Source: Lachnospiraceae bacterium (GTDB taxonomy: Bacteria; Bacillota; Clostridia; Lachnospirales; Lachnospiraceae). From it: a stretch of 64,000 nucleotides of DNA. Every line of letters starts with the position of its first letter. The stretch's first letter is position 1. The stretch covers positions 1 to 64,000 of the forward strand of contig SVFB01000062.1 of assembly GCA_015057085.1 (NCBI GenBank), in the 5' to 3' direction. The notes under the pieces are model-generated. The model saw only the letters and a list, made by a program, of their open reading frames with translations, was not told the DNA's origin and did no database searches. Both the position numbers and the translations under genes were made by a program. This document shows positions 51,671 to 54,525 of the stretch, in pieces.

Positions 51671-52111
51671 ATGGCTAAATTTGTTTATCGAATGCAAAAC
51701 ATATTGGATATCAAGCAAAAGCTTGAATCACAGGCGAAAATCACATACGGTCTTGCGGCACAAAGATTTGCAGAGGAACAGCAAAAGCTGCAGGAACTTA
51801 TGATTCGGCGTATGCGATATGAGAAAGCATTGCGTCAAATGATGGAAGGCCCTTTGAATTTAAAAGAAATTCACAATGCAAAGTCAGATGTTACGATGAT
51901 AAAAACATTGGTGCGTGCGCAAACAATTAAGACAAGACGTGCGGAAGCACAGATGAATGATGCGAGACGCGCTTTAAACGAGGTGATGCAGGAACGCAAA
52001 ATTCAGGAGAAACTCAAAGAAAAAGCCTTTGAGGAATTTAAGCGGGAAATTGCGGCACAAGAAGCAAAGGAAATTGACGAACTTGTAAGTTATACTTACA
52101 ACGGTAATTAG
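51671..52111 (+). CDS. fliJ: Flagellar export chaperone FliJ
   Basis: Coiled-coil protein that sits in the FliI ring like the gamma subunit in F1 and escorts export chaperones. The 146-residue, almost entirely helical product opens with FVYRMQNILDIKQKLE, the usual FliJ start. Its position after fliI supports the call. AAAGAGG precedes the ATG. Confidence 0.93.
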   Translation: MAKFVYRMQNILDIKQKLESQAKITYGLAAQRFAEEQQKLQELMIRRMRYEKALRQMMEGPLNLKEIHNAKSDVTMIKTLVRAQTIKTRRAEAQMNDARRALNEVMQERKIQEKLKEKAFEEFKREIAAQEAKEIDELVSYTYNGN

Positions 52112-52122
52112 GGAGAAGTCTT

Positions 52123-52958
52123 ATGCCTGAAGATGAAGAATTAAAAGAAAAAGAAGAAGAAAACGAAAGAAAAAAAAGAAAAAAGATAAGAAAAGCAAAA
52201 AGGATAAAACGGATAAGCAAGGGGATTCGCCCGATGGGGAAGAAGAAGAGGAAAGCATCGGAAGCAAAATTCTGTTGGTATTTGTCACCATTATTATCAT
52301 TGCGATTTGGCTTGGCATTTTCGGAATTTTGATTAAGTTTGATGTCGGAGGCTTTGGCTCTACCGTTTTATATCCATTACTGAAGGATGTTCCTGTTGTG
52401 AATCGGGTTCTTCCGGATGTGGATGTGACCGAAAGCACGGAAGCAGATGCTTATGGATTTGATTCTTTGGATGAAGCAACTGCTTATGTGAAGGAATTGG
52501 AAGTTCAGTTGGCAGATGCACTGGATAAGAATTCTGAGTTGACTTCAAAGGTGGATGAATTAAATGCGGAGCTGGCGGAATTAGATACTTTGCGTCAGGA
52601 ACAAGCAGAATTTGAAACTTTAAAAGAAAAATTTTATGAAGAGGTTGTTTTTTCGGACGAAGCACCCGATATAAATGAATATAAGACCTACTATGAGAGC
52701 ATTGATCCTGAAAATGCCGAGGTTTTATATAAACAGGTGGTTGAGCAAATTCAAGAAGACGAAGAGGTTGCGGCCTATGCAAAGCGGTATTCATCAATGG
52801 ATCCGGAGAGCGCTGCAGCAATCTTTGATACCATGACAGATGATTTTAATTTGGTTGCGAAAATTCTTGGAGCGATGTCGACACAAGCAAGTTCAGACAT
52901 CCTTGCAGCAATGGATTCGAAAAACGCAGCTACTTTAACAAAAATTATGGAACCATAA
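52123..52958 (+). CDS. MotE/YlxF-like flagellar protein, coding sequence split by an apparent -1 frameshift
   Basis: GGGAG and the ATG at 52123 start a Lys/Glu-rich reading frame that runs only to 52332. The conserved part continues in the -1 frame, which is open from 52137 to the stop at 52958. The switch falls on A-runs at 52170-52185 containing two slippery heptamers in the correct phase. Joined by one -1 shift, the product has about 278 residues: a charged cytoplasmic tail, one transmembrane segment (about residues 48-70), a coiled coil (about 110-150) and a C-terminal MgtE_N-like domain with YSSMDPESAAAIFDTM. B. subtilis has ylxF at this place. Without a shift, the only visible start in the second frame is a TTG at 52275, inside the membrane segment. 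Confidence 0.75.
52170..52185 (+). other. Tandem slippery heptamers in the motE/ylxF-like gene
   Basis: In the frame set by the ATG at 52123, A AAA AAA lies at 52170-52176 and A AAA AAG at 52179-52185; the second is the same heptamer as in E. coli dnaX. A -1 slip at either leads to the codon GAT at 52185 and into the downstream conserved frame. I see no strong Shine-Dalgarno-like stimulator or stable hairpin nearby. Confidence 0.6.
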
Positions 52959-53013: not shown

Positions 53014-54525
53014 TTGGATTTTTTTAGTATTACAAATCTTAGTCGGAATATGATGCCGGAAACAGATTTGGCTGCTACGATTTCTGAAAAAAAAGAAAAC
53101 ATTGATTTCTCAATGATGCTTTCAAATCTATCAGACAATGTATCGAACCTCAACCACCCGATGCAAAATACTGGTGCTGAAATCACAAGTGGCAAAACAG
53201 AAAGTCTCAAGGTAGATCAAAGCGGAATCGAAAAGCGAAACATCAAAGATGCAACTGTTACGGATAACAGTGCGGATGCAAAAGTGGATGATGAAACGGT
53301 CAAAGATGTGGTCGAATTCAAGGATGATGTGGTTTCGGCAATCAGTGAAGAGACCGGAGTGGATGTGGAAGACGTAGAAAAAGCCATGGAAGTGCTTGGT
53401 CTTTCAATCGCAGATTTATTGAATCCACAAAATCTTGCCAATCTGGTTCAGAACCTGACCCAGGCGGAAGATGTGACAGCACTTTTGCTGAGCGATGATT
53501 TCAGTCAGCTTTTAAGTGAGATTACAGATCTTGCATCACAGCTTTCAGAATCTCTTTCCATGGACGGGGATGAGATGACGCAATTGCTTTCGCAATTTGA
53601 TTTCAATGTAAGTGAAAATGATCTGCCGGAGATGAACTTAGAAAACTTGCTGGGACAGGAACCGGCAGGAGATAAGGTCGAACAAGCAACAGCAAACACA
53701 ATTATGGATCAGGAGGGACAAGCTCTAAGTCCACTGCAAGAAGCAGAGGGAATGAAAGAGGCTGCGACAGTGGAAGTTGCAGTGACCGATGAAGTTCCTG
53801 TGGATGCGAAAAAAGATGTAGACCTTAGCGAGACAACTGTTTCCGAAAATGATCAGGAGCCGGAAGCAAACTTACAGGCAACTGTGACAAAAGAGAAGGC
53901 TGATACAACAGAAGAAGATGGATTTATGAAGGAATCTTCTAATCAAGAGGAATCCAATCCAATGCTTCATCAGCATAATCCGGAAGTCCAGGTACAAAAT
54001 TCTGAATCGGTTAGTTTTTCAGAGAGCACTGCATCTTATGTAAGCAGTTATACTTCAGTTGATGCAACACAGATTTTAGAACAGATTACCTCAAATCTGA
54101 AATTGACATTGGCTGCAGATACGACCACTATGGAAATGCAGTTGAATCCGGAAAATCTCGGAAAAGTATTTCTTCAGGTATCAAGCAAGGAAGGAATTGT
54201 TTCTGCTCAGATTACAGCATCAAATGAAACGGTCAAAGAAGTTCTTGAAACTCAGATGGCAACACTCAGAGAGAATTTAAATCAGCAAGGTGTGAAAGTC
54301 GATGCAATTGAAGTGACTGTATCTTCTCACGGTTTCGAGAAAAACTTAGACAGTGGTCAGCAGAGAGAGCAGCAGGAAGGCGAAATGCAGGAAGCAAACA
54401 AGAAGACACGCAGAAGTATTCGCCTTGATTCACTTGATGAATTATCAGGACTTATGACGGAAGAAGAAATGTTGGTAGCACAGATCATGAAAGACAATGG
54501 AAATTCCATGGATCTGACAGCATAA
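53014..54525 (+). CDS. fliK: Flagellar hook-length control protein FliK
   Basis: Molecular ruler that stops hook growth and switches export specificity. It starts with TTG at 53014, eight bases from AAAGGAGG; the next ATG is 12 codons later. The 503-residue protein is acidic and repeat-poor for most of its length and ends in the conserved Flg_hook domain (about residues 360-455; MEMQLNPENLGKVFLQV and ATLRENLNQQGVKVDAIEV). A Gln/Glu-rich tail follows. flgD lies 19 bases downstream. Confidence 0.93.
   Translation: MDFFSITNLSRNMMPETDLAATISEKKENIDFSMMLSNLSDNVSNLNHPMQNTGAEITSGKTESLKVDQSGIEKRNIKDATVTDNSADAKVDDETVKDVVEFKDDVVSAISEETGVDVEDVEKAMEVLGLSIADLLNPQNLANLVQNLTQAEDVTALLLSDDFSQLLSEITDLASQLSESLSMDGDEMTQLLSQFDFNVSENDLPEMNLENLLGQEPAGDKVEQATANTIMDQEGQALSPLQEAEGMKEAATVEVAVTDEVPVDAKKDVDLSETTVSENDQEPEANLQATVTKEKADTTEEDGFMKESSNQEESNPMLHQHNPEVQVQNSESVSFSESTASYVSSYTSVDATQILEQITSNLKLTLAADTTTMEMQLNPENLGKVFLQVSSKEGIVSAQITASNETVKEVLETQMATLRENLNQQGVKVDAIEVTVSSHGFEKNLDSGQQREQQEGEMQEANKKTRRSIRLDSLDELSGLMTEEEMLVAQIMKDNGNSMDLTA

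Follow-up and report, generated by a model that had tools for sequence, protein, structure and literature searches.

A probable private single-base frame break in the flagellar ylxF gene of a Lachnospiraceae bacterium

In the flagellar cluster of this Lachnospiraceae bacterium, a gene lying between fliJ and fliK has its start in one reading frame and its conserved part in another, which raises the question of whether the two frames are joined by ribosomal or transcriptional slippage, are switched by changes in tract length, or are the outcome of a plain indel or sequencing error. The window, by which we mean the whole stretch of 64000 nucleotides that was analysed, holds a long flagellar cluster with Pfam matches for fliF, fliJ, fliK, a small flagellar protein, motA, motB, fliL, fliM, a CheC/FliN-type switch protein, a response regulator, fliO and fliP; putative fliG, fliH, fliI, flgD and flgE genes were named by sequence and gene order, without a family match. 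The features of the locus are:

51671..52111, + strand: fliJ, the intact 5' neighbour (Pfam FliJ, 4e-13; NCBIfam TIGR02473 above cut-off)
52110..52115, + strand: AGGGAG, the Shine-Dalgarno motif of ylxF (from the sequence; comparable layout in Agathobacter ruminis)
52123..52332, + strand: ylxF frame 0, the true start followed by out-of-frame codons to a TGA
52170..52177, + strand: A8 run with A_AAA_AAA in slippery phase, judged the likeliest break site
52179..52185, + strand: A_AAA_AAG heptamer in X_XXY_YYZ phase
52185..52958, + strand: conserved part of ylxF in the -1 frame (end of the lysine-rich lead, membrane-type helix, coiled coil and MgtE_N-like helical domain)
53014..54525, + strand: fliK, the intact 3' neighbour (Pfam Flg_hook, 2e-19)

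The Shine-Dalgarno motif overlaps the fliJ stop, which is followed after 11 bases by the ATG at 52123, and the frame opened there runs for 69 codons to the TGA at 52330-52332. The open stretch of the -1 frame extends from 52137 to 52958, and the first ATG, GTG or TTG in it is the TTG at 52275, which we rejected as a start codon, as it has no Shine-Dalgarno motif and lies inside the membrane helix. As the frame 0 start, including an N-terminal EDEELKE common to both genes, and the -1 part each match A. ruminis, we take both parts to be the coding sequence of one gene. The frame changes within a lysine-coding, A-rich stretch (52158-52185), where the sequence confirms that both heptamers reported in the first-pass annotation, A_AAA_AAA at 52170-52176 and A_AAA_AAG beginning with the A6 run at 52179-52184, stand in the X_XXY_YYZ phase.

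Codon usage gave the same picture. Against a table of 105379 codons from the same genome, a single switch from frame 0 to the -1 frame was favoured by 31.5 nats, with approx. 97% of the posterior on a switch after bases 52158-52185. Over the 30 codons from 52186 to 52275 the -1 frame scored -115.0 compared with -127.8 for the upstream frame, in agreement with the earlier remark that the latter uses rare codons there; ATA, CGG and AGG occur at 5.9, 2.1 and 1.6 per 1000 in this genome. These data clearly show that ylxF is split beyond chance, and the coordinates first proposed, the ATG at 52123 and the placing of the conserved part in the -1 frame all stand, on the sequence, the codon usage and the match to A. 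ruminis. In comparison with A. ruminis the -1 part has a dN of 0.144 and a dS of 1.1, from which the downstream frame appears undamaged and under purifying selection; either the change is recent, therefore, or product is still made.

We identify the gene as ylxF, which in the Bacillota corresponds to the flagellar E-ring proteins FlgY/FlbB/MotE. The B. subtilis ylxF is named as such a homologue, and a fliJ/fliK neighbourhood described as typical for E-ring genes, in PMC13023049. The first-pass identification as a motE/ylxF-like gene is upheld by the fliJ/fliK neighbours, the layout and a weak domain match, the three lines on which the family assignment rests. PF03448 (MgtE_N) matched the -1 part with an E value of 6.9e-5 and 23.8 bits, below its cut-off of 25.9, and it matches 23 of 28 aligned family members at E 0.001. 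The best NCBIfam match was FlbB, a weak one at 19.4 bits, far under the cut-off of 110, and a PDB sequence search returned a weak match to the magnesium transporter 2oux (E 0.0069) and FliG at E 0.089. In the predicted structure (overall pTM 0.33) a disordered lysine-rich lead is followed by a single long hydrophobic helix, a coiled coil and, at the C-terminus, a helical domain, with a membrane-type helix modelled at residues 25-52, a segment hydrophobic by sequence too, and helices at 163-255 (pLDDT 62-75 for residues 161-190 and 86-94 beyond). The arrangement by which E-ring genes are recognized, a fliJ and/or fliK neighbour together with an N-terminal membrane helix, is thus seen here, and the place between fliJ and fliK, the membrane-type helix, the coiled coil and a putative C-terminal MgtE_N-type helical domain are shared with the E-ring proteins described in PMC13023049; the difference is that in this genome the lysine-rich lead and the remainder of the gene are in different frames.

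We then examined the reading frame of ylxF in other bacteria. With the own genome counted in each search, 40 relatives gave 35 matches, 397 family genomes gave 174 and 62 genus genomes gave 60, and the DNA was read for 29 of the 34, 129 of the 173 and all 59 of the other matches respectively; a scan of genome contigs added 80 further loci. The 275 loci tested, which include the window's own, reduced to 247 distinct loci plus one shortened locus (L107). Apart from the window's own, 243 of 246 distinct loci are continuous, one (L040) starts at a contig edge and two (L074 and L198) are split. Start picking by Shine-Dalgarno motif went wrong in a few relatives (L026, L123 and L127), which were checked by eye, and a test anchored on fliJ was used instead. 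This test was passed by 145 of the 246; in a further 97 the search for the fliJ end motif gave nothing, but a start with a Shine-Dalgarno-like motif, by a loose definition, stands in the conserved frame, and L073 is intact on inspection by eye. Of the 59 other loci from the genus, 57 are intact, the exceptions being one at a contig edge and the split L198. In addition, the C-terminal part of ylxF yielded no two-frame case in 243 loci, and a scan of viral contigs found no relative. The comparison with related genomes suggested in the first-pass annotation thus shows a continuous frame in nearly all the relatives examined, the nearest of which, A. ruminis JK623, has a continuous ylxF that is just 78% identical.

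In L074 and L198, ylxF is likewise split by -1, in the same lysine-rich stretch. L074, from the Butyrivibrio fibrisolvens 16/4 draft, also has fliI and fliK in two frames, and L198 has fliJ in two frames, and these further breaks in neighbouring flagellar genes indicate that both loci sit in stretches that are decaying or full of errors. Within the window, the same flagellar genes show no second break of this kind.

The heptamers themselves proved to be common. Among 135 distinct relatives whose start could be read, with the start picked wrongly in a few, 71 carry an in-phase A_AAA_AAA or A_AAA_AAG, and 70 of these 71 are continuous, the other being the locus at the contig edge; as lysine-rich leader coding brings such heptamers with it, those of our gene are unremarkable. 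When 145 family N-termini were compared with synonymous shuffles, A_AAA_AAG was found about as often as expected (49 compared with 47.5) and A runs of at least six bases were in slight excess (212 compared with 195.0, z 2.0). A_AAA_AAA was depleted (46 compared with 68.0), as were A runs of at least eight bases (22 compared with 53.5, z -6.1), and runs of at least nine numbered 0 compared with 21.0 expected, an absence that points to selection against poly-A in the lysine-rich leader of ylxF.

The state of the assembly was assessed on 20 stretches of the same genome (325852 bases), which with the window make 389852 bases. Among 93 gene-to-contig matches to the A. ruminis sample (29502 residues) there was one flagged break, in a test that is blind to breaks near gene ends and left ylxF itself unflagged. 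We rejected the flagged break, as it runs antisense to two adjacent intact plus-strand genes that match A. ruminis fully, at 76 and 79%. An initial ORF comparison with A. ruminis had flagged three rows in L147, one of which was left with non-overlapping ORFs; all were antisense to plus-strand genes and were likewise discarded. A scan for starts found that 10 of 269 ORFs with a strong coding signal had no early start, nine of which we judged to be normal neighbouring genes starting later; the tenth is ylxF, which stands alone among the 269 coding ORFs sampled in having no credible start. The same scan flagged 6 of 270 in the A. ruminis sample. Matched genes contain five runs of at least eight A or T, and all five are in frame, which argues against a general homopolymer fault. 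The clean sample around ylxF tips the balance somewhat from a sequencing fault to a real base loss. This genome gave no SSU rRNA in a search whose control was positive in just 9 of 14 genomes, which is why we do not rely on the hint of a metagenome assembly that its absence gives. The missing SSU rRNA and a missing tRNA-Lys(UUU), which was absent among the 30 tRNAs reported for the draft assembly, are probably assembly gaps.

Taken together, these data make it very probable that the locus is an ordinary ylxF gene with a private single-base frame break, whether a real contraction or a consensus error, and of the options first raised it is the plain indel or sequencing error that fits best. Singleton frame breaks with intact homologues are ascribed to indels or sequencing error in PMC3711429, and the singleton frameshifted genes of that GeneTack survey resemble ours in having intact homologues, one broken copy and a break at a poly-A heptamer; those genes come from complete genomes, whereas our ylxF is in a draft with an unknown error rate. 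DNA slippage in the A-rich lysine stretch, most plausibly at the A8 run (52170-52177), would have shortened the tract by one base in the population that was sequenced. We regard a real base loss as modestly favoured, and a consensus error at the same run as a plausible though less probable origin. Ribosomes starting at 52123 would then make a 69-residue lysine-rich peptide that has neither the membrane helix nor the C-terminal domain, and no more than a minority may return to the conserved frame by slipping on the A runs, giving only residual product; such leaky slippage could yield some YlxF protein.

A useful share of full-length YlxF might alternatively be made by a -1 slip on A_AAA_AAA or A_AAA_AAG, or by RNA polymerase slipping on the A8 run. 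The two heptamers stand in phase, nothing interrupts the downstream frame, and reporter cassettes with seven and nine A residues gave 10 and 40% frameshifting respectively in PMC3711429. A further point in favour of this rescue is that A_AAA_AAG is depleted in the slippery phase in sampled genes of this genome (31 compared with 48.5 expected, z -2.4) and of A. ruminis (28 compared with 43.8, z -2.6), with no depletion in the other phases, whereas A7 is depleted in all phases in the sampled genes at large. On these counts the heptamer would seem to cost these bacteria something, which suggests that leaky rescue may occur; the ylxF site may really slip, and this counts against our preferred explanation. 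The criteria for stimulators in PMC4066793 are a Shine-Dalgarno motif 6-17 nt upstream or a hairpin starting 4-10 nt downstream. However, we found no Shine-Dalgarno-like motif in the 30 nt upstream of the ylxF heptamers and no hairpin starting 4-10 nt downstream, the first helix lying approx. 24 nt after the heptamer in a region of ordinary folding (z -0.83). Strong slipping at A_AAA_AAG in E. coli is tied in PMC5009743 to its sole tRNA-Lys, and by that reasoning AAG should be less slippery here, as this genome has a gene for tRNA-Lys(CUU); the slippery-phase depletion is seen in this genome despite that tRNA. With no split in any relative free of other breaks nearby, we consider a functional rescue of this kind unlikely. 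For dedicated programmed -1 frameshifting, conserved for regulation in the manner of the E. coli dnaX and IS elements (PMC5009743 and PMC4066793), the site offers the same heptamer in the same phase. In contrast with those systems, neither a Shine-Dalgarno-like motif nor a nearby hairpin was found for it, it is not conserved, and tRNA-Lys(CUU) is present. The conserved frame transition expected of programmed frameshifting is not seen, with 243 of 246 loci continuous, and the unslipped product has no conserved domain, all of which makes this reading extremely improbable. The built-in ribosomal or transcriptional slippage put forward in the first-pass annotation thus finds no support, given a private split, stimulators that were sought and not found, heptamers that are common in continuous relatives and the presence of tRNA-Lys(CUU).

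The tract might instead be a contingency locus, at which slipped-strand mispairing would switch the E-ring and motility on and off. Motility genes with a poly(A) run close to the 5' end are known (PMC2831843), and for L. monocytogenes inlA as well as B. subtilis swrA it is described there that a one-base change in a 5' A run turns the gene off. However, a selected tract should be kept, whereas the family shuns long A runs at ylxF, the one split copy without other breaks nearby is our own, and no length variants were seen with one genome per species. We therefore hold phase variation to be quite unlikely, and selected tract-length switching, as first proposed, is unsupported at the family level. 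In short, neither a built-in recoding site nor a conserved switch nor a selected phase-variation tract is supported.

The case shows that slippery heptamers in the lysine-rich leader are the usual state of the ylxF family and that, on their own, they do not signal recoding. We found no paper joining ylxF and frameshifting among open-licence PubMed Central papers. It is conceivable, and in our view improbable, that this Agathobacter lineage has the shorter A tract either as a fixed or as a reversible state, and that the frequency with which ribosomes or RNA polymerase slip at the tandem A runs sets the level of YlxF and hence of the E-ring and motility, a part of the flagellar motor being tuned in this way by homopolymer length. 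Were mixed tract lengths to prove true, the finding would matter more, since ylxF is described in PMC13023049 as an overlooked motor gene in B. subtilis.
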